Below the pieces are notes generated by a model. That model saw only the letters and a program-made list of their open reading frames with translations, was not told where the DNA came from and did not search any database. A DNA stretch of 29,855 nucleotides, taken from IMG/VR virus record IMGVR_UViG_3300027805_000059, positions 1-29,855 of that record; one strand, 5' to 3'. Positions 17,109-29,855 of this stretch are shown here, one piece after another (the stretch's first letter is position 1; each line of letters begins with the position of its first letter). The translations under genes and the position numbers were made by a program. Source of the stretch: a virus.

Positions 17109-18569
17109 TTATGCTGTAGCAGCAGTGAATAACACGAAGTTATTGGCTCCTTGAACAACTAAACATCTTTCTGATAAGAAGTGTACCTCCATTGCATCAA
17201 GATCAGAAGTGTAAGCACCACCAACAGATCCAGTGATCCAAGACTTCATTCTACGATCGTCAGCTTGTGAAGCTCTATAACGTACGTGTAAGAATGGACG
17301 TCTAATGTTACTACCTAAGATTTGATCATAAACAGTAGAAGTTCCAGCTGGCACTAAGATACCATCAATGCTTGATACTTCAACAGCTCCACGAGTTGAT
17401 GCGTCATTTAAGTATTTCCAATCTGTTTTATAGAAATCGTAAGAACCTCTACGGAATCCAGAGAAACCTAAGTTCAATGCCATTTCAGCAGAGTTTTCAA
17501 ATAAACCGTAAGCAACACCACCAGCGGCACCAGAAGATAAAGAAGCTAACATATCATCAAAATCTAAAGATGTTTGACGGTTTAAGAACAACATGTTTTC
17601 TTCGATAGCACCTTGAGTATCCAAGTTTTTAAGGATTTCATCAAAATCAACTAATCCAGAAGCAGCTGTAAACCCAGAAAGTACATTACCTCTTTCTTGA
17701 ACAGCAGCAAATAAACCTTGAGTTCCTTTGTAAGATACATCACCAGCGATATTTGCAACACCTGAACCAGCAGCGGCTAATTCACCCTCAACGATTGACA
17801 TTTCCAAATAATCTTCAAAACGTAAACGAGTTTCAGATTCTGCTTTCAAATACCATAAGAATCCACTAGCTCCGTCTTCTGTAGCAATTTCTACCCACCC
17901 GATTTGAGCAGTGTCAGATCCTGAAATACCATATTTTTCTTTAATGATAATTGGAGAGTTAGAATATTGAGTAAATGAAGGAGTAACTGATTTAATATCT
18001 TCGTCTCTTGTTCCTTTTTTGTATTCAGAACCATAAACAAAGATTTTTAAGTTAGTTGGTCCAACCATATCAACATCACCAGGAGAAGTCACATTCAAGT
18101 TAGCCTGAGTATAAGGAGCTACAGTAATCGTAGCTAATGTTCCAGCTAAATTGTTTGTGCTATCAAGTACTAATACTTTTAATTCAGTACCAGTTGTTGG
18201 ATTCATAATAACCAAAGTTTGGTTTTTAGAGATAACATTTTGAACGATAGGTCCTAATGAAGGATTATTATTCAATACAAATGTTAATGTAGTATTTGTT
18301 GCTCCTGTAACATCTGTATAAGCAATGTGTAATCTGTTTTGTTCAGACCATACTACTTGATCAGAAGTCATTGGCATCTCTGCTCCTACCATACGTAAGA
18401 ATCCAGATAAAGTTCTGTTCCCGTAACGCTCTACTTCAGCTTCGTAGATTTCTGGTAAATATTGCTGCGCGAAGTCATTGTCTCCGTTTGTAAAGTTTAA
18501 ATAGTTTGTCTCTAATGCTTGTTGCTTCTGAGAAGGTACTATTGACCCAAATTGTGGTGATAAAGCCAT
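17109..18569 (-). CDS. Major capsid protein
   Basis: A 486-residue protein lying directly after the scaffold-like gene and followed by a strong hairpin, which is the normal place and context for the major capsid protein. The N-terminal segment (PSQKQQALETNYLNFTNGDN, then QQYLPEIYEAEVERYG) and RTLSGFLRMVGAEMPMTSDQ resemble the N-arm region of crAss-like capsid proteins as I remember them. The length suits the HK97-fold capsids of that group. By eye its codon use is less extreme in A/T than its neighbours, consistent with high expression. The start is ATG 18569, preceded by an A/T-rich run with no Shine-Dalgarno sequence. No prohead protease gene is recognisable nearby, so any processing protease is unknown. 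Confidence 0.85.
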   Translation of the reverse strand: MALSPQFGSIVPSQKQQALETNYLNFTNGDNDFAQQYLPEIYEAEVERYGNRTLSGFLRMVGAEMPMTSDQVVWSEQNRLHIAYTDVTGATNTTLTFVLNNNPSLGPIVQNVISKNQTLVIMNPTTGTELKVLVLDSTNNLAGTLATITVAPYTQANLNVTSPGDVDMVGPTNLKIFVYGSEYKKGTRDEDIKSVTPSFTQYSNSPIIIKEKYGISGSDTAQIGWVEIATEDGASGFLWYLKAESETRLRFEDYLEMSIVEGELAAAGSGVANIAGDVSYKGTQGLFAAVQERGNVLSGFTAASGLVDFDEILKNLDTQGAIEENMLFLNRQTSLDFDDMLASLSSGAAGGVAYGLFENSAEMALNLGFSGFRRGSYDFYKTDWKYLNDASTRGAVEVSSIDGILVPAGTSTVYDQILGSNIRRPFLHVRYRASQADDRRMKSWITGSVGGAYTSDLDAMEVHFLSERCLVVQGANNFVLFTAATA

Positions 18570-19809: not shown

Positions 19810-22212
19810 TTACATAAGACCTAAGTCAAATTCATTCATACCGCTGTTTTCAAAATCCTTTGGCATAGTATTATTTTTTCTTTGCTCAATTAATTCTGAT
19901 TGTTGTGTAGCTTGTATTTTTGTTCTTTGATCTTTTCTATCTTCTGCTTGTTGTAATTTTTGATTAGCAATATCAACTTGTAGCTTTGCTAATTCAAAAT
20001 CATATTGGAATTGTTCCGCCATAAGTAGCTTCTTGATTTCCAATTCTTGCTGCATTCTTTGCATTTCAAATTGAGATTTTGACTGTAGCACCTGTATCTC
20101 TGTTTGCGCTATAGCTTCTCTTTTTTGAACCTCAGCCATTGCTGCAGCTTCTGATGCTTGCGCTTGAGATTCGCCTTGTGCCTTAATCATTGCTTGCTGA
20201 TTTGCTTGATCTCTTTCTTGCTTTTTCTTCTTTTTAAATTTTAAAGCTTGATTAGCTAAATCTATATTCGTTATTCTGTTTAAATCAATAACGTCTTCAA
20301 GATCTATATTTCCAGCTTGTAAGGCTATTTGTATATTTCTTTGGAATGCTGCTTTTTCTTCTTCCTCTGGCTCCAATTCAAGGAATATACCAAAGTCATG
20401 CAAATTAAGATTTTCAATTTCTCTTAACGTTTCTACATTAAATAAAGAAATACTTTCTATTAATGATTGTTTAGTTAATGGAAAATTAAGCGAATCCCCA
20501 ATTCGTAAAGAAACATTTTCGCACACTCTTAATGTTAAATACAAACTAGCATCTTTAATATGCCTAGTTGCTGTGTTTGAATTTGCAGCTGCCATTTTTT
20601 GTAATCCTACTAACGCGTCTGGATCTGGCGTACTTCCATCTCTTGCTTCATTTAATCCGGTGACATCTCGTATCATTTGTAAATAATACTGATAGGTGCC
20701 TATCAACGCTTGTATTTTAGCGTTGCCGTTAGATGTTTGTAATTCCTGGATTGGCACTTTGCCTTGGTTAAATCCACCGTCTTGTGACATAGATCTACCT
20801 ACAATACTACCTGTTTGGAAGTACATATTAAGAGCTTCCGCTGGATTGTAATTTGTACCATTACCTAAATCAACTTCAGCTAATCCATCTACGTCTACAA
20901 ATACACCGTCAGGAACCATTCTAGATAATACCTGTTGCAATTTAAGGTGCGTTAATTGAATCATATCAGCAAAAGTAGTAGTTCTACTTACCAATGACTC
21001 AATTCGTCCTTTATATATTCTTGGCGCACAAATGGTATAATTCATCTGTACTTTTGTGGTATCAGCAAATGGACGCGTCATATTTTCAGCCAATTTCCAT
21101 TCTAGCATTTTTTCATATCCAAGAATTTTTGCTCCTGTATATAATACTTCAATACTCCTAGACACCCTTTTGAAATTATCGTTTTCAGGTGGGTCAAAAC
21201 TATCGTCTTTTTCAATAGCTTTTTCCATACCTTGTTCGGTTTGCTTTATTTTAAATACTTGATTTGAATAAGTCTTGTATTCAAAATATAATACTTGAAC
21301 AGTTGTATTGTCATTACTTTGTCCAGGATAATTACGAATATAATTCATATCTCCCGGATATTTTTCAATCTCTTTTAATTCATCATCTGATAAATAAGGA
21401 AATTGTTTTTTTAATTCTTCTAAGCTTATGGCTTTTACTTCTCCAACATAGTATACATCTTCAAAGTTAGGGTCCTCAGTATAAGAATATACTAAATTTG
21501 CGGGATCTACATAATCAATAACTATACCATTAGCGGGATTCCACGATGTTTTGGCACACGCAATCCCAATAACCGCTAAATCATAATTAAGTCTTTTAGC
21601 AATATAATCATATTTATTAGTTGCTAAAACCTGGTTTATAACTTCTTCCTCAGCAATTTCAATTGATGGCTTGTAATCAAGCTGCAATCTCATTTCTAAT
21701 TCTTCTGTTGATTCAGGTAATTCGTCGGGGTTTGTAGTATTATATAAATTTACGCCAAGCTTACTATTTATTTGGTCAAGCAACTCGCGTGCCATCATAT
21801 CTCTAATAATACCAGCCGCATAATCTGTTTTTGCTTTTGTTGAAGCGGGATCTTGAGCATAAGCTTTTATGCTATAGCTCTTATTAGATATACCATTAAC
21901 AACAATGTCAACAAACTTTGGCAAGATAGGAATTGGTTTCCAATCTAAGTTTAAATAAGATAAATCACCGTTAATAGCTAACTCATCTTTGTATTTTTGT
22001 ATTGGTTGTTCACCTCTTGCGTAAAGTCTTAATCTGTGAAAGTTTTGCCAGTTTGATCCAAATCTATCATTACCTGCTCCACCAACACGATCTCCTCTAA
22101 ACCATTCGTTCTCGATAGCCCTACCTACAAGCGCTCCATATTCTAATGTCTGCTTTACGTAATCAGGTACTACCTGACTTGGGAAAGAACTATTACTGTT
22201 AGTATAAACCAT
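19810..22212 (-). CDS. Portal protein
   Basis: An 800-residue protein immediately after TerL (3-base gap), at the portal position. The size matches the large portals of crAss-like podoviruses. The N-terminal ~640 residues form a mixed alpha/beta body. It includes LPKFVDIVVNGISNKSY, the kind of clip/stem lead-in seen in portals. It also includes IRDVTGLNEARDGSTPDPDAL and QKMAAANSNTATRHI, which resemble the crown/wing transition of portal families in Bacteroidota phages. Residues about 658-780 form a long Gln/Glu/Lys/Ala coiled coil after a poly-Lys patch (KFKKKKKQER). This extended C-terminal barrel or tail would point into the capsid. It makes the ring that carries DNA and docks the terminase and the tail. 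Confidence 0.85.
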   Translation of the reverse strand: MVYTNSNSSFPSQVVPDYVKQTLEYGALVGRAIENEWFRGDRVGGAGNDRFGSNWQNFHRLRLYARGEQPIQKYKDELAINGDLSYLNLDWKPIPILPKFVDIVVNGISNKSYSIKAYAQDPASTKAKTDYAAGIIRDMMARELLDQINSKLGVNLYNTTNPDELPESTEELEMRLQLDYKPSIEIAEEEVINQVLATNKYDYIAKRLNYDLAVIGIACAKTSWNPANGIVIDYVDPANLVYSYTEDPNFEDVYYVGEVKAISLEELKKQFPYLSDDELKEIEKYPGDMNYIRNYPGQSNDNTTVQVLYFEYKTYSNQVFKIKQTEQGMEKAIEKDDSFDPPENDNFKRVSRSIEVLYTGAKILGYEKMLEWKLAENMTRPFADTTKVQMNYTICAPRIYKGRIESLVSRTTTFADMIQLTHLKLQQVLSRMVPDGVFVDVDGLAEVDLGNGTNYNPAEALNMYFQTGSIVGRSMSQDGGFNQGKVPIQELQTSNGNAKIQALIGTYQYYLQMIRDVTGLNEARDGSTPDPDALVGLQKMAAANSNTATRHIKDASLYLTLRVCENVSLRIGDSLNFPLTKQSLIESISLFNVETLREIENLNLHDFGIFLELEPEEEEKAAFQRNIQIALQAGNIDLEDVIDLNRITNIDLANQALKFKKKKKQERDQANQQAMIKAQGESQAQASEAAAMAEVQKREAIAQTEIQVLQSKSQFEMQRMQQELEIKKLLMAEQFQYDFELAKLQVDIANQKLQQAEDRKDQRTKIQATQQSELIEQRKNNTMPKDFENSGMNEFDLGLM

Positions 22213-22215
22213 TTA

Positions 22216-24435
22216 TTATATTATTTTTGAAGTATTGCCGTTGTTGTCATATTTTTTAAATTGTAAAGGTACACTTCTTTTCGCTGTTTCATAAACAGGC
22301 GAATATTTGTGTCTATTACATGCCATTATAGCTAGTCCTGAACTAATAGAAGCATCATGCTTCGTTCTGTCATTAATATTAAACCTAGCCCAGTCATTTA
22401 GTGTTCTTTGAAAATACATATCTCCATAGCCATCACCTTGTATTCCAACGTGATCTTCTATATATGTTTCAATAGCCGCCGCGTGAGCTTGTATAATGTC
22501 TTGCCCTGAGTTTGGTATGCCTCCAATTTCTTTTTCCGTTGGAGATAACTTATTCCAAGTCTTATCGGGTCTATTCATAGAAAAACCTCTGTATCCTCTG
22601 CGTTTAAAATAATATAGTAGTCTAGCTTTATTATTCTCTGCCAATATAGGCATACCGTAAAATACACAGGCCATTAAAACCTCTTCAAAAAATATCTCAG
22701 CTGTTTGTGGTCTAGCTATATATTCTAAGAAAAAATGGTTTATTGGAATGCTTTCCATTGAAAATTTTGTTAAACCGTGCAAAGCCCCATTGGACCCTCT
22801 AGTGTCAACAGTTCCCGATATATCGTAACTATCGCAACCAAAAGCTCCACAGTGCTCATTGCCAGGAAATTTAACCCCATCTTTTATTATTACGCGGTTT
22901 TGTAAGTATTTATCGGGAACCCAGCTAATTAAAAATCTACCATCTGGGTTTGGATAAAATATAACTTTTGAATCTTGTATGCCGTTTTCCCATTGAAAAC
23001 TACCTCTTGTTAATACGCTCGAGTTTCTAAGGTCATCGTTATAATCAATTTGTTCGTATATTTTAGTTAGGTTAAACAAAGATTGCTTTGCTTCATCTCT
23101 AAAAGCGTGTTGTTCTGTTCTTGGAAATTGACGGTAATATTCGTTTAGCGCGTCGGAATCTCCTTTTAAGCCTTCAACTTCATTTTGCCAGTGTTCAATT
23201 ACTCCTGTTTCAATCCAATTGCCATCAACGCCTTTTACCGGTTTTTGCGGAGTATCGAAGACAGGTAGGCCATAAGTATCAATGAATCCCTCGTACGACC
23301 ATTCCATAGGTATGAACAAACTATATAATCCTGAAGAAGTCTGTCCATTGCGGTTTCTTTTTGTAACATCCGAGTTGTAATAAAGTTTCTTAAAATTCTC
23401 TCCCCCTTTATCTAATGCATTTGAGGTTGACCCCATCATACACTTACCAATAACTCTGGATCCTAATCGTAAACAAGTTTTTGTAACCCGCCAGTTATTT
23501 AATATATTATCTGGGCGTTCCCATTTACCACTTTCATCATGTACTAATAACTTTAACTTTTCACCATCATAAGAGTTATCTCCTGTATTTTTCCAGTCAA
23601 TAGTTGTGTCTAATCCATCAAGCTCTTCAAGCTTTTCATTAGTGTCTAATTTTTTACGCGTAAGTTTTGAAGCGGGTATTCTATATGCTAATTCCGTTTT
23701 TGGTCTATCCATACCGTCTTGGATAGGTTTGAAAAAGAATGGGTAATTTATAGATATTGGTACTACTTTGTCTGTGAACATCTTTTTAGCATCTGCTCCT
23801 GACTTAGAAAGTATACCGTATCTGGAATCACTCGATATAGTTGCTTGATTAACTAATTCTGCAGAAGACATAAATGAAAAACCGGAACGTCTATTTTTTA
23901 AATAGGACATACCGTAACATCTACTATCTGCTTTACAAGCTTCCCAGAATATAAAAAACAATCTATTAGATTCTCTAAAATCTGGAGCACCAATATCTAT
24001 CTTACTCCATTGTAAGTACATATAGTGTGTACCTGTTATATAGGTAGGTTTCCCATTATTGTAAAATGAAAAACCTTCTTCTCTGCGTTTAAATTCTTGA
24101 TCAATGTAATCATACCAGCGTTCCTTAAAGGCATCTGGGTATTTATTCCAATCAAAAACATTTTTTATTTTTGATAATTCTTTTGGAATTTCTAATTGTT
24201 CCCAATATTGATCTTCCTGTTTGCTTGATCTTTTATGCACTCCTTCTATTAAAGGTAGTGCTATTCTAAGATTTTGTATTTCGTATATTTCGCCAATTTT
24301 ACCGGTCTTGCTTATAACAACAACGTCATGCTCTCTATCATAACCGTATTCCCATTTGTTGTGTCTATTTTTTTGTTTTATTATATTTGGCTTAATATAA
24401 TCGATAAGCTCTTTATATAAAGTTTGTTCGTACAT
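22216..24435 (-). CDS. terL: Terminase large subunit
   Basis: A 739-residue protein with an N-terminal ATPase and a C-terminal RNase H-like nuclease. A deviant Walker A-like loop is at residues 179-188 (LKNRRSGFSF). Walker B is at 296-301 (LLVHDE, Asp300/Glu301). A coupling motif (MMGSTS) lies at 333-338. The nuclease has candidate metal ligands Asp535 (FGCDSYD), Glu600 (ILAEN) and Asp694 (KHDASISSGLA). It packages DNA at the portal and cuts genome concatemers. The start ATG overlaps the stop of the upstream small gene (TAATG), indicating translational coupling, and the portal gene follows 3 bases later. The missing classic GxxxxGKS loop is known in several Bacteroidota phage terminases. Confidence 0.93.
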   Translation of the reverse strand: MYEQTLYKELIDYIKPNIIKQKNRHNKWEYGYDREHDVVVISKTGKIGEIYEIQNLRIALPLIEGVHKRSSKQEDQYWEQLEIPKELSKIKNVFDWNKYPDAFKERWYDYIDQEFKRREEGFSFYNNGKPTYITGTHYMYLQWSKIDIGAPDFRESNRLFFIFWEACKADSRCYGMSYLKNRRSGFSFMSSAELVNQATISSDSRYGILSKSGADAKKMFTDKVVPISINYPFFFKPIQDGMDRPKTELAYRIPASKLTRKKLDTNEKLEELDGLDTTIDWKNTGDNSYDGEKLKLLVHDESGKWERPDNILNNWRVTKTCLRLGSRVIGKCMMGSTSNALDKGGENFKKLYYNSDVTKRNRNGQTSSGLYSLFIPMEWSYEGFIDTYGLPVFDTPQKPVKGVDGNWIETGVIEHWQNEVEGLKGDSDALNEYYRQFPRTEQHAFRDEAKQSLFNLTKIYEQIDYNDDLRNSSVLTRGSFQWENGIQDSKVIFYPNPDGRFLISWVPDKYLQNRVIIKDGVKFPGNEHCGAFGCDSYDISGTVDTRGSNGALHGLTKFSMESIPINHFFLEYIARPQTAEIFFEEVLMACVFYGMPILAENNKARLLYYFKRRGYRGFSMNRPDKTWNKLSPTEKEIGGIPNSGQDIIQAHAAAIETYIEDHVGIQGDGYGDMYFQRTLNDWARFNINDRTKHDASISSGLAIMACNRHKYSPVYETAKRSVPLQFKKYDNNGNTSKII

Positions 24436-24707
24436 TACTTAGACCTCCCTTCTGCAAAACCTTTAAAAACTTTTGTTTCAGTTGTTTTTTCAGCGTCTTC
24501 TAGCATTTTTTCTTCTTCTTGTATTCTATTCAATATTTCAAGAGCATCAAAAATTGCTAATTTTTTAGTCGCTGCTGCGTTTTTTAATCTATCCGCAGAT
24601 ATATCGTCACCGCTATCTACAATTTTTTCTTCAGCAACTTTTATTAATTCCTCAACTGCTTTCTGCCCAGCTCGGATTATATTCAGCTTCGTCTCCTTTA
24701 TGTTCAT
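24435..24707 (-). CDS. Candidate terminase small subunit
   Basis: A 90-residue, almost entirely helical protein directly upstream of TerL, sharing a TAATG stop/start junction with it. The sequence (AVEELIKVAEEKIVDSG, then ISADRLKNAAATKKLAIFDALEILNRIQEEE) gives two or three amphipathic helices and an acidic C-terminal tail. Position and size fit a small terminase, but no helix-turn-helix is obvious. The first ATG (24707) lies 56 bases inside the end of the upstream GroES-like gene. This is a long overlap, so the true start may be further downstream at a non-ATG codon. A DNA-recognition function is inferred from context only. Confidence 0.5.
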   Translation of the reverse strand: MNIKETKLNIIRAGQKAVEELIKVAEEKIVDSGDDISADRLKNAAATKKLAIFDALEILNRIQEEEKMLEDAEKTTETKVFKGFAEGRSK

Positions 24708-25257
24708 ATTTAATTACAATATCATTAGATTTCATACAATATAATCTCTGATTGTCCACTATGAATTCAAATTCACCGTAAGGCTTGTATCCAACTAGGT
24801 CACCAGGATTGATTCCGAGCTCTTTTAAGGAGTCGTTTCCATATTTTAATACTCCAATACGTTTTCGCTCTTTATCAAGCTTAAATTGGTTAGTATTTTT
24901 TATTGGTTTAATAAAGCAACGGTCATTATAAGAATGCCATTCACCATCTTTATTATACAAATAAATTTGATCGGGAGCGCAAAAATATAGATCTTCTTTG
25001 AAATAAGATCTACTATTTTTTTGTTTGCCTCTAATGTCGTAAAAGCGTCTAAATACATTGTGATGTATTACAATAATATCGCCCGGCTTTATAGCTGTTT
25101 CAAAAGCTAACGGCACAGAAACCACTTCTGCTAATTTATTAACAGATTTAAAGCTTTCTATTTTGGTATTTATTATTAACGGTTTTCCGTTTACATCAAC
25201 AGTATTATTATATCTAGAGCCTACAGGTTTAACTATAAAATCAAATACAGCTGTCAT
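24652..25257 (-). CDS. Tandem GroES-like (co-chaperonin fold) protein
   Basis: A 201-residue protein that reads as two GroES-like domains. Domain 1 covers residues ~5-118: a first strand FDFIVKP, a flexible loop with GKPLIINT, AEVVSVP, then IKPGDIIVIHHNVFR, an insertion at ~72-92, and closing strands to RCFIKPI. Domain 2 covers ~112-186: CFIKPI, IGVLKYG, LGINPGDLVGYKPYG, FIVDNQRLYCMKSNDIVIKYE. Both follow the GroES order 'first strand - EVVAVG - VKxGDxVxF - I(D)...YxxxxxxDIL'. The strand FIKPI may serve both domains. Domain 2 has a very short mobile-loop region. It lies in the same operon as GroEL/GroES and overlaps the candidate small terminase. A co-chaperonin or capsid-folding role, as for T4 gp31, is plausible, and a purely structural use of the fold is possible. 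Confidence 0.65.
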   Translation of the reverse strand: MTAVFDFIVKPVGSRYNNTVDVNGKPLIINTKIESFKSVNKLAEVVSVPLAFETAIKPGDIIVIHHNVFRRFYDIRGKQKNSRSYFKEDLYFCAPDQIYLYNKDGEWHSYNDRCFIKPIKNTNQFKLDKERKRIGVLKYGNDSLKELGINPGDLVGYKPYGEFEFIVDNQRLYCMKSNDIVIKYEHKGDEAEYNPSWAESS

Positions 25258-27264: not shown

Positions 27265-27579
27265 TTATTGCTTTTTATACGCTTCTACTTCCCAGGGCAA
27301 GTTTTTAGCGCCCTCATTCATTTTTGAACGGGGATATTTTTTACCTTTCCAATATACGTATTTCTCATCGTAATCTAAATCGCCTCTTTTCATTTGAGCA
27401 ACATGCACCATCTCATGCGAAATAGTTTTGTTCTTCTTTAATTCTAAAGGTGATATATCTTTGTTTACAAGTATTGTGCCGTTTGATTGCGCCATTCCAA
27501 GTATATTGTCGTCCATGTCCCTACTATATATTGGCGTATTGTGCATATTATAAGGAGGACCAGACATTTTAAATGCCAT
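27265..27579 (-). CDS. Mini-zincin metallopeptidase-like protein
   Basis: A 104-residue protein with HEMVH at residues 55-59, the HExxH zinc/catalytic motif, inside ISHEMVHVAQMKRGDLDYDE. A probable third zinc ligand (Glu97 or Glu99) lies in LPWEVEAYKK at the C-terminus. The pattern 'HExxHxxQ...G...YWKG..Y......LPWExEA' matches small zincin-like peptidases found in phages and mobile elements. No signal peptide is visible, so it acts in the cytoplasm or in the virion. Possible roles are processing of phage structural proteins, for which no other protease is recognisable here, or cleavage of a host factor. The motif is directly visible and the substrate is unknown. Confidence 0.75.
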   Translation of the reverse strand: MAFKMSGPPYNMHNTPIYSRDMDDNILGMAQSNGTILVNKDISPLELKKNKTISHEMVHVAQMKRGDLDYDEKYVYWKGKKYPRSKMNEGAKNLPWEVEAYKKQ

Positions 27580-27585
27580 ATTAAT

Positions 27586-27915
27586 TTAGCATTTTTTCAT
27601 TTTAGCCGCCGGTTTACCTTTGGTTGTGCCATATTTTTGCATAGGGGCAGGTGTTGTAACTGGCTTTGCAGCCGCTTTAGCTTTAGCCATATCTCCAAAC
27701 TTTCTTTTTTGCATAGGTGCAGGTGTTGTAGCTGGCTTTGTAGCAGGTGCAGGTTTAGTTGCAGCCGCTTTAGCTTCTTTTTTTGCAGCAACTTTAGCAG
27801 CTAAACCAGCCATTACTTTGCTCGCCGCACTTTTATTTGTATTAGCTACTATTTCTTTTGCTTTTGCTTTTAGACCCGCTTTTAGACTCTCTTTTTGTTT
27901 AACTGGTGTTTTCAT
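27586..27915 (-). CDS. Lys/Ala/Pro-rich histone-like basic protein with internal repeat
   Basis: A 109-residue protein dominated by Lys, Ala, Thr and Pro (KAGLKAKAKEIVAN, AAKVAAKKEAKAAATKP), with a strongly basic end (KPAAKMKKC). Two copies of a segment containing TTPAPMQK lie 24 residues apart. The composition is like histone H1 C-terminal tails or bacterial AlgP/Hc1-type DNA-binding proteins. It could bind DNA or RNA or act as a disordered virion protein, but low complexity makes homology unreliable. It ends 6 bases before the mini-zincin gene. An overlapping minus-frame reading (27597-27791) is a shadow of the repeat. Confidence 0.5.
   Translation of the reverse strand: MKTPVKQKESLKAGLKAKAKEIVANTNKSAASKVMAGLAAKVAAKKEAKAAATKPAPATKPATTPAPMQKRKFGDMAKAKAAAKPVTTPAPMQKYGTTKGKPAAKMKKC
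27634..27742 (-). repeat. 72-bp-period direct repeat within the basic protein gene
   Basis: The 37-base stretch 27634-27670 recurs at 27706-27742 with three mismatches. A shorter block (GCAGCCGCTTTAGCTT) also appears at about 27668 and 27761. The repeat keeps the reading frame and encodes the duplicated TTPAPMQK segment. Confidence 0.8.
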
Positions 27916-28329: not shown

Positions 28330-28590
28330 TTATACTGTTGGCCCCATTGCTCTATCAAACGAATTTTCCATAGGCACACCAAATGCACCAGTTATTGTAC
28401 TTTGCGCTTTTGGATTAAATGACACAGGAGCACCTGTGGGCTTAATCCCTGGATTGAACATTCTTGGATCTGATACTAACCCTGGTTGAGGCATAACTTT
28501 GCCGCTTAAACTAGCATTAGTTGTTGTTGCTGCAGCAGGCATTGCGCCCGTATTATTTGGTAACCCTTGTATTTGACTATCGTATCTCAT
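28330..28590 (-). CDS. Small Pro/Ala-rich protein of unknown function, 86 aa
   Basis: An 86-residue low-complexity protein rich in Pro, Ala, Thr and Gly (LPNNTGAMPAAATTTNASLS, then GAPVSFNPKAQSTITGAFG), likely disordered. Its start overlaps the stop of the putative winged-helix gene in an ATGA junction, which argues that it is translated. It may be a minor virion protein, but no family is recognised. Confidence 0.5.
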   Translation of the reverse strand: MRYDSQIQGLPNNTGAMPAAATTTNASLSGKVMPQPGLVSDPRMFNPGIKPTGAPVSFNPKAQSTITGAFGVPMENSFDRAMGPTV

Positions 28591-29033
28591 CTTGTTTTGT
28601 CTTTGTTTAAATTATTTATTGCTGAACGTAACACAATATCTGTGTATGTGTTATTTTTCATTATCTTATTGCTTCTTGCTGTTGTTGGAATATTTTCCTC
28701 TCCTAGCATAATACGGTACATTCTATGTATTAGTTGTTTGCACTTGAATGAAACTTTATATATGTTATACTTTTGGGTTGTACGGTTTCTATTTCTCCAT
28801 ACCACTATCCATCCTTCTTTTAACAAATTGTTCCAGCGCTTATTGTCCCAACTATATGCGTATGTACCTATCTTATAATCTTGCTTGGTAAAATATTCCA
28901 TGCAGTCAAAATATATTAATAATTCTAAATCAGCATCGGTAAGATCGTAATTTCTACAAGCCCATCTACGTATTAATCTATAATGTTTTAATAAGCCTAG
29001 ATCCTTTATATCACTAGCTTCTAATCTTCTCAT
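28587..29033 (-). CDS. Putative winged-helix-like protein upstream of the structural operon
   Basis: A 148-residue basic protein. The order (DADLELLIYFDCMEYFTKQDY, then WDNKRWNNLLKEGWIVVWRN, then QKYNIYKVSFKCKQLIHRMY) gives a helix, a helix and turn, a beta hairpin ('wing') and a C-terminal helix. This is the layout of MarR/PadR-type winged-helix DNA-binding domains. The same type of protein is common in environmental tailed phages, where I know it only as hypothetical. It is coupled by ATGA overlaps to both GroES (upstream) and the 86-residue gene (downstream). It could be a late-gene regulator or a DNA-recognition factor in packaging. The fold is inferred from the pattern. Confidence 0.45.
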   Translation of the reverse strand: MRRLEASDIKDLGLLKHYRLIRRWACRNYDLTDADLELLIYFDCMEYFTKQDYKIGTYAYSWDNKRWNNLLKEGWIVVWRNRNRTTQKYNIYKVSFKCKQLIHRMYRIMLGEENIPTTARSNKIMKNNTYTDIVLRSAINNLNKDKTR

Positions 29034-29290
29034 AGTACTATTACAACATCTTGCAACCTAATAACTTGATAATCTTGCCCTTCTAATTCAATTCCATGCC
29101 CTGCCGCTTTGTCATAATAAATAACATCCGCCTGCTTTAAACATTTAATATCATCACTTACAGAAACTACAACGGCCTCTTTATATCGAATATTTTCTTT
29201 GTCTTTTTCTTTTAATAATAATCCATTCTCTGTTTTTGATAACCCTTGCTTCTTAGGAAGGATCACAATATTATTACCTATTGCCTTCAT
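29030..29290 (-). CDS. groES: Co-chaperonin GroES
   Basis: An 86-residue GroES-type co-chaperonin that caps the GroEL folding chamber. The first strand is KAIGNNIVILP. The mobile-loop region (SKTENGLLLKEKDK) holds the hydrophobic GLLL that would bind GroEL, equivalent to GGIVL in E. coli GroES. It is followed by EAVVVSV, then ADVIYYDKAAGHGIELEGQDYQVIRLQDVVIVL-type core strands with the closing DVVIVL. Its length is near the bacterial norm of ~95. The start ATG lies inside the end of the GroEL gene (17-base overlap), so it is translationally coupled to it. The order groEL then groES is the reverse of the bacterial groES-groEL operon. Confidence 0.9.
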   Translation of the reverse strand: MKAIGNNIVILPKKQGLSKTENGLLLKEKDKENIRYKEAVVVSVSDDIKCLKQADVIYYDKAAGHGIELEGQDYQVIRLQDVVIVL

Positions 29291-29855
29291 TAACTCTTAA
29301 ATTATTAATTACACAATCAGTTGACAAAATGGTAATAGCTACGGAAGCGGCATTTCTTAATGCGCTTTTTGTAACGGATAATGGATCAATAATACCAGCA
29401 TCAATCATATTAACTAAATCTCCAGTTATTGCATTTAATCCAAAGCCATCTGGGCGATCAAAAACCCCAACAGGTATATCAATGCCAGCATTCGTTAATA
29501 TTGTCTTAAATGGAGCCTTAATAGCTTCTAACAGAGCAGACTCTCCTTTTGTTAATGCTTTAATTTTTCTAGACGCATCTAAAAGAGCAATTCCACCTCC
29601 TGGAACAATTCCTTCTTTAATAGCGGCTTTAGTTGCGCAAATAGCGTCTTCAACTCTATCTGCTTTTTCTTTTAACTCAATATCAGACCCCGCGCCAACC
29701 TTAACTACCGCTACTTTTGCTGATAATCTAGCTAATCTTTTTTCTAATCTGATTACTTCTCCAGGAGGTAATTTTTCATTTAATTGTTCTTTTATTACAT
29801 CAATTAAAGATTGAACCTCTTCTTTTATTTCACCCACATGGAGTATTGTTCCGGT
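29274..29855 (-). CDS. groL: Chaperonin GroEL, C-terminal part (5' end beyond window)
   Basis: The frame is open to the window edge and codes for 193 residues. An internal GTG at 29837 is not the start, because GroEL-like sequence (TGTILHVGEIK) continues upstream to the edge. Visible landmarks are RLARLSAKVAVVKVGAGSD, KADRVEDAICATKAA with the Asp equivalent to E. coli D398 (ATP hydrolysis), EGIVPGGGIALL, and NMIDAGIIDPLSVTKSALRN with the Asp equivalent to D495 in the nucleotide pocket. These belong to the intermediate and equatorial domains, so the ATPase appears intact in the visible part. The C-terminus ends NNLRVNEGNR, without the GGM-repeat tail of bacterial GroEL. It is the first visible gene of the operon and probably folds phage proteins in the host cytoplasm. 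Confidence 0.93.
   Translation of the reverse strand, partial: TGTILHVGEIKEEVQSLIDVIKEQLNEKLPPGEVIRLEKRLARLSAKVAVVKVGAGSDIELKEKADRVEDAICATKAAIKEGIVPGGGIALLDASRKIKALTKGESALLEAIKAPFKTILTNAGIDIPVGVFDRPDGFGLNAITGDLVNMIDAGIIDPLSVTKSALRNAASVAITILSTDCVINNLRVNEGNR

Follow-up and report, generated by a model that had tools for sequence, protein, structure and literature searches.

Gene organization of the locus

The window analysed here is a complete IMG/VR virus record, a linear fragment of 29,855 bp in which nearly all genes lie on the reverse strand (Table 1). Read from its right end, it carries a GroEL gene cut by the contig end, a GroES gene, a third gene designated ORF148, small genes, a putative second co-chaperonin gene designated ES2 and a 90-aa gene, which are followed by the genes for the terminase large subunit (TerL), the portal protein, a 397-aa protein, a probable capsid protein and tail-type proteins.

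Table 1. Features of the chaperonin locus and the adjoining packaging and structural genes (window coordinates)
Feature	Position	Strand	Match
Group I chaperonin GroEL, truncated by the contig end to its C-terminal 193 aa	29274..29855	-	Pfam PF00118; phrog_5725
GroES, single-domain co-chaperonin, 86 aa	29030..29290	-	Pfam PF00166
17-nt stretch shared by the groEL 3' and groES 5' ends	29274..29290	-	
ORF148, third gene of the overlapping cassette	28587..29033	-	phrog_17028 (unknown function)
ES2 (201 aa), putative second co-chaperonin of predicted tandem-Cpn10 (Cpn20-like) type	24652..25257	-	phrog_13932
90-aa gene between ES2 and TerL	24435-24707		
Terminase large subunit (TerL)	22216..24435	-	phrog_6681, E=8e-174
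Portal protein	19810..22212	-	phrog_6547, E=4e-151
Virion structural protein, probable major capsid protein	17109..18569	-	phrog_13704, E=1e-93

The window GroEL belongs to the Cpn60 family by its match to Pfam Cpn60_TCP1 (E=5.6e-23, profile positions 331-487 of 490), which scored 81.8 bits against a curated cut-off of 34.3, and it also matched the PHROG family annotated 'chaperonin groEL' (E=5e-44). The window GroES matched Pfam Cpn10 with E=2.4e-9 (37.5 versus 21.1 bits) and a set of cellular-type GroES proteins in hhalign with E=2e-15, and its AF2 model (pLDDT 85.7) matched Cpn10 structures in the PDB. The mobile-loop motif KTxxGLLL is conserved, and the roof-hairpin region is about 9 residues shorter than that of E. 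coli GroES; judged from sequence and model together, the protein is a Cpn10 fold with a hydrophobic mobile-loop motif.

For comparison, 80 IMG/VR relatives sharing 67-83% identity across the 193-aa fragment were retrieved, giving 81 loci together with the window. GroES lies adjacent to and downstream of GroEL in 81 of 81 loci, ORF148 follows GroES in all 81, and ES2, TerL and portal then come in constant order wherever the contig extends far enough (GroEL-GroES-ORF148-...-ES2-TerL-portal). The overlap of exactly 17 nt between groEL and groES and the passage of the pair into a structural operon, both described in the first-pass annotation, were borne out. In the 74 loci whose GroEL ORF is complete, the groEL-groES overlap is most often 17 nt (43 loci) and otherwise 23 nt (17 loci), 20 nt (7 loci), 4 nt (4 loci) or 1 nt (3 loci), and the overlap of GroES and ORF148 is 4 nt in 81 of 81 loci. 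When loci were fetched via ES2, the same cassette was found in all 25 family loci with a flank long enough to include it; the flanks of L233 and L240 ended before GroEL, and five phi19:3-type loci had no GroEL there.

ORF148 gave nothing significant in a Pfam search and is possibly a small DNA-binding protein. Its homologues adjoin the chaperonin genes in the Flavobacterium phage elemo (elemoB) and in ctfjg026, the Maribacter phage Panino has its homologue about 1 kb from them and encoded on the other strand, and GroEL-less phi18:3-type phages carry a weak homologue. Comparison of distance matrices supports the pairing of GroEL and GroES (partial r=0.47 given TerL, p about 0.0005), with ORF148 tracking GroEL more closely than GroES does (partial r=0.56 given TerL), and lends little to a GroES-ES2 complex, for which the correlation was only 0.19.

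Two of the small genes have features of their own. The gene at 27265-27579 encodes a small protein in which the stretch SHEMVHVAQ contains a HEXXH motif like that of zinc metalloproteases; its similarity to zinc metalloprotease families is weak and stays under the Pfam cut-offs. The neighbouring gene at 27586-27915 encodes a basic low-complexity protein rich in Lys, Ala and Pro within the late operon, and a similar protein is encoded far upstream of GroEL in the relative L002 (88-396).

ES2, a predicted tandem co-chaperonin

ES2, which was absent from the first-pass annotation, matched the PHROG family 'co-chaperonin GroES' with E=3e-23. The best PDB fold match of its AF2 model (pLDDT 88) was the Cpn20 chain 7ekq_R over the full length (E=1.6e-5), and the model also matched the 'Chaperonin cpn10' of phi18:3 (TM 0.76). 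At the sequence level, the C-terminal half is Cpn10-like when compared with cellular-type GroES (hhalign 89%, E=2e-6), and the N-terminal half is weakly so (hhalign probability 17%), its domain being assigned from the predicted fold. ES2 is thus predicted to be a tandem Cpn10 of the Cpn20-like type, with two GroES-like domains in one chain.

In whole-genome searches, single-domain GroES was scored from Pfam Cpn10 matches in short frames and ES2 from full-length PHROG matches. Both were found together in Calle, phi40:1, elemoB, Panino, ctfjg026 and seven IMG/VR records, as well as in phi18:3 and phi19:3, and every sampled genome with ES2 had a single-domain GroES; because these genomes are related, the co-occurrences are not independent events. 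The genome search detected no GroEL in phi18:3 or phi19:3, nor in two closely related phages of about 72 kb, and ES2 was not found in the whole genomes of Gundel or two crAss-like phages. The genes before TerL in the crAss-like phages phi14:2 and cr108_1, considered as ES2 homologues, were not supported as such.

In the window, a single gene separates ES2 from the downstream TerL, and in elemoB and Panino ES2 directly precedes TerL. This position could indicate that ES2 is a packaging or head component with a GroES-like fold and not a chaperonin lid, a reading to which the low hhalign probability of the N-terminal half would also conform, as would a Pfam search that missed the ES2 of elemoB, Panino and ctfjg026. 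We regard it as unlikely, although it retains some weight, because the C-terminal half matches cellular-type GroES, the fold match to Cpn20 extends over the whole length, and ES2 is always accompanied by single-domain GroES in the tested genomes. In addition, a role of ES2 as a virion protein was set aside since the phi40:1 homologue carries no virion-proteomics note, whereas the neighbouring structural genes have one.

With ES2 read as a tandem co-chaperonin, its regular occurrence alongside single-domain GroES suggests a possible mixed lid of the two proteins, which could serve the GroEL of either phage or host. The pair is kept in Pachyviridae phages that lack a GroEL, which suggests that GroES and ES2 can work with a host chaperonin. 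A more specific scheme, which we offer tentatively and with considerable doubt, is that single and tandem subunits form one lid (for example, one single and three tandem subunits giving seven domains), an arrangement otherwise known from chloroplasts, and that the pair is an old module which acts in Pachyviridae on the host's GroEL and which later either acquired a phage GroEL as partner or was parted from one. If true, the mixed lid would be a prokaryotic counterpart of the chloroplast Cpn10/Cpn20 system.

Integrity of the phage GroEL

The visible part of the window GroEL has D398, GGG414-416 and D495 (numbered as in E. coli), in agreement with the earlier description of the visible ATPase residues as intact. 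The same residues are invariant in 73 of 73 full-length relatives (514-523 aa), as are T30, G32, K51, D52, G53, D87, GDGTTT and S151; at the sequence level, the residues for ATP binding and hydrolysis are intact in the visible window part and in all of these relatives. The truncation of the window gene is due to the contig end only. An exact-match scan for a contig overlapping the right end of the window found none, and since the 5' half lies off the contig, intactness of the window groEL is judged from its relatives with 81-83% identity. The disruption of the 5' half that the first-pass annotation had raised as a possible counter-finding was not seen, the relatives having intact 5' halves. 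In one relative (L079), the GroEL ORF is shortened, yet it aligns over the full length at 99.8% in one frame; this gene appears to carry a single in-frame interruption, which may be a sequencing error. Median dN/dS values, taken from pairs with dS of 0.2-1.2, were 0.18 for GroEL, 0.34 for GroES, 0.23 for ES2 and 0.064 for TerL, indicating purifying selection on GroEL.

The salt bridges of the GroEL relatives also bear on function. The D83-K327 bridge is charge-swapped (K/R83 with D/E327) in 53 of 73 sequences with no same-charge pair, R197-E386 (as K197-D/E386) and D155-R395 are retained, and R58-E209 is mostly lost; the compensated and retained bridges are as expected for a working allosteric machine. 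The inter-ring contact segments around E434 and at S463, V464 and N467 are deleted or variable in the relatives, so a single-ring or weakly joined double-ring GroEL is possible.

These altered inter-ring segments could alternatively mean that the phage GroEL does not act as a folding machine but serves as a decoy or a scaffold, either moonlighting or associated with the virion. Consistent with such a role, the GroEL protein of phi38:1, a cultured relative from the same phage lineage, was detected in free-virion samples as well as in infected cells (PMC13288928). A decoy or scaffold is nevertheless improbable in view of the complete ATP site, the compensated salt bridges, the conserved GroES mobile loop and the strict pairing of GroEL with GroES, and the peptides in the virion samples may represent carry-over.

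Gene order and phylogeny

GroES was located upstream of GroEL in 47 of 47 cellular loci examined, sampled from Bacteroidota, Pseudomonadota, one Chloroflexi MAG and E. coli, which upholds the earlier statement that bacterial operons run groES then groEL, with the reverse order in the 81 family loci. A GroEL tree was constructed from 60 sequences by IQ-TREE under the LG+C20+F+G4 PMSF model. The window family forms one phage-only clade (support 100/98), and it is joined by elemoB, ctfjg026 and Panino with support 99/96; this larger clade contains exactly the sampled phages in which GroES comes after GroEL, with one small ORF between the two genes in Panino. The joining of elemo and the other phages could be partly artefactual because of very long branches and a bootstrap that had not fully converged. 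Calle, immuto, DAC19 and MT835992 have GroES upstream of GroEL and all fall outside the reversed-order clade. One clade of phage GroELs carries the reversed order as a fixed trait, which probably became fixed only once, order and phylogeny being confounded by shared descent.

Nesting of the window family with Bacteroidota, in a constrained clade that included the two phages placed there, DAC19 and LR756501, was rejected by the AU test (dlnL 73.6, p=0.0005). Although host-like genes do occur in phages, as in DAC19 and LR756501, and in canonical order, as in DAC19, immuto and MT835992, a recently captured host groEL that was reshuffled after acquisition is rejected under the tree model used and is extremely improbable for the window family, which is monophyletic and whose window fragment shares 37-42% identity with Bacteroidota GroELs, hardly more than with those of other bacteria. 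The phage-only clade, the AU rejection and the reversed order together support long evolution on the phage side, as the first-pass annotation had proposed in place of recent capture, and the window gene did not fall within one host genus. Its supporting argument from the C-terminus was weaker. The window GroEL ends in ...CVINNLRVNEGNR (last residues ...NNLRVNEGNR) and does lack the GGM-rich tail that is common in, and not strictly defining for, group I chaperonins, but the tail is also absent from several Bacteroidota GroELs (L123, L125 and L126-L129, ending in ...PPMDY or ...SPSDMEF), so its loss is not diagnostic and was rejected as evidence of a phage origin.

Several GroEL matches came from MAGs labelled Chloroflexi, Euryarchaeota, Rickettsiales, Aliivibrio and others (L088-L095). 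As host genes they were rejected, since most carry the same phage cassette, three of three MAGs checked hold a separate GroEL of ordinary cellular type, and the sequences fall inside the phage GroEL clade. They are most likely mis-binned phage contigs, and such phage GroELs in MAGs could mislead surveys of host genes.

Host, late-gene context and proposed function

The relatives of the window TerL belong to phages of Flavobacterium, Cellulophaga, Maribacter and Tenacibaculum, together with ctfjg026 (65% identity), and the nearest ones with a named host all infect Flavobacteriia. Because the TerL relatives infect such hosts, the host of the window virus is likely a member of the Bacteroidota of the flavobacterial type. 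In L002, genes read from their translations as tail-fibre, spanin-like and M15-endolysin-like precede GroEL, and packaging and structural genes follow it. GroEL thus sits among late genes, with which it is presumably co-transcribed. The detection of phi38:1 GroEL as a protein in infected cells and free-virion samples (PMC13288928) also counts in favour of a functional system.

Taken together, these features make it highly probable that the locus encodes a functional, long-established group I chaperonin of a Bacteroidota phage, in which GroEL and GroES form a late cassette of fixed reversed order that would fold late structural proteins and would include ES2. In the proposed mechanism, an ATP-driven GroEL and its own GroES would be made together from the overlapping late-gene cassette, and their folding chamber would act late in infection, most likely on abundant phage structural proteins. 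ES2 may serve as an alternative lid, may combine with GroES into a mixed lid of the chloroplast kind, or may serve the host GroEL. The analysis shows the make-up of the locus, its conservation, the purifying selection on it, its phylogeny and the co-occurrence of its genes, from which ATPase activity, the clients and the division of the lid role between GroES and ES2 are inferred; the probable major capsid protein is a candidate client. Given the place in the late operon, the earlier suggestion that the chaperonin folds capsid or tail proteins beyond the capacity of host GroEL is plausible. A whole GroEL-GroES machine would then be a fixed late-gene part in a widespread phage lineage, with at least 600 matches listed in the scans.

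Relation to known chaperonin systems

Marine et al. (ISME J, 2017) reportedly described divergent GroELs in the virioplankton and a link between the order of the subunit genes and the GroEL phylogeny. Phage T4 encodes only the lid, gp31, and relies on host GroEL. The window GroES, whose model matches gp31, is likewise a phage co-chaperonin of GroES fold, but the window phage differs in bringing GroEL as well. GroEL was reported in 36 environmental genomes of the phi38:1/phi40:1 group of marine Bacteroidetes phages (Nishimura et al. 2017, PMC5332604), where gene order and a tandem co-chaperonin are not discussed in the parts consulted. GroEL and GroES were reported in the Panino paper (PMC11590407), and the core proteins of Pervagoviridae include cpn10 (PMC8776804).

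The GroEL-GroES pair is therefore not new in kind, marine Bacteroidetes phage GroEL having been published in 2017 and the reversed order being present in cultured phages, with such pairs already in public records for the elemo phages (NC_062741) and ctfjg026 (MW202828). As in the window, GroES immediately follows GroEL in these phages, their GroELs belong to the same clade, and a second co-chaperonin lies upstream of the terminase; the elemo GroEL differs in being only about 39-41% identical, and the chaperonin cassette of the elemo phage is inverted relative to the structural genes. phi40:1 resembles the window in its ES2 homologue at the terminase, and Callevirus differs in that its GroES gene precedes GroEL and is separated from it by one gene.

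The two-lid set of GroES and ES2 is the less explored part. In chloroplasts, single and tandem subunits build rings of seven GroES-like domains (PMC5780408), and the phage set resembles Cpn20/Cpn10 in combining a predicted tandem Cpn10-like protein with a single-domain one. ES2 differs from Cpn20 in that its second domain has no obvious mobile-loop motif, and the ES2 profile gave no match to Cpn20 at the sequence level. Phages with GroEL and two lids (elemo, Panino, Callevirus) and those with two lids and no GroEL (phi18:3, phi19:3) offer a natural comparison, by which the clients and the need for a phage-borne GroEL are testable in cultured flavobacterial phages.

The chaperonins of jumbo phages (EL, OBP and PBS1/AR9-type) are also phage-encoded and group I-like, but they are only about 22-26% identical to the window family; that of OBP was purified as single rings (PMC5934643). 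In the crAss-like phages phi14:2 (L097, 3976-5448) and cr108_1 (L098, 5992-7476), GroELs of about 490 aa with no clear GroES, apart from one weak Cpn10 match in cr108_1, are encoded a few genes upstream of TerL.
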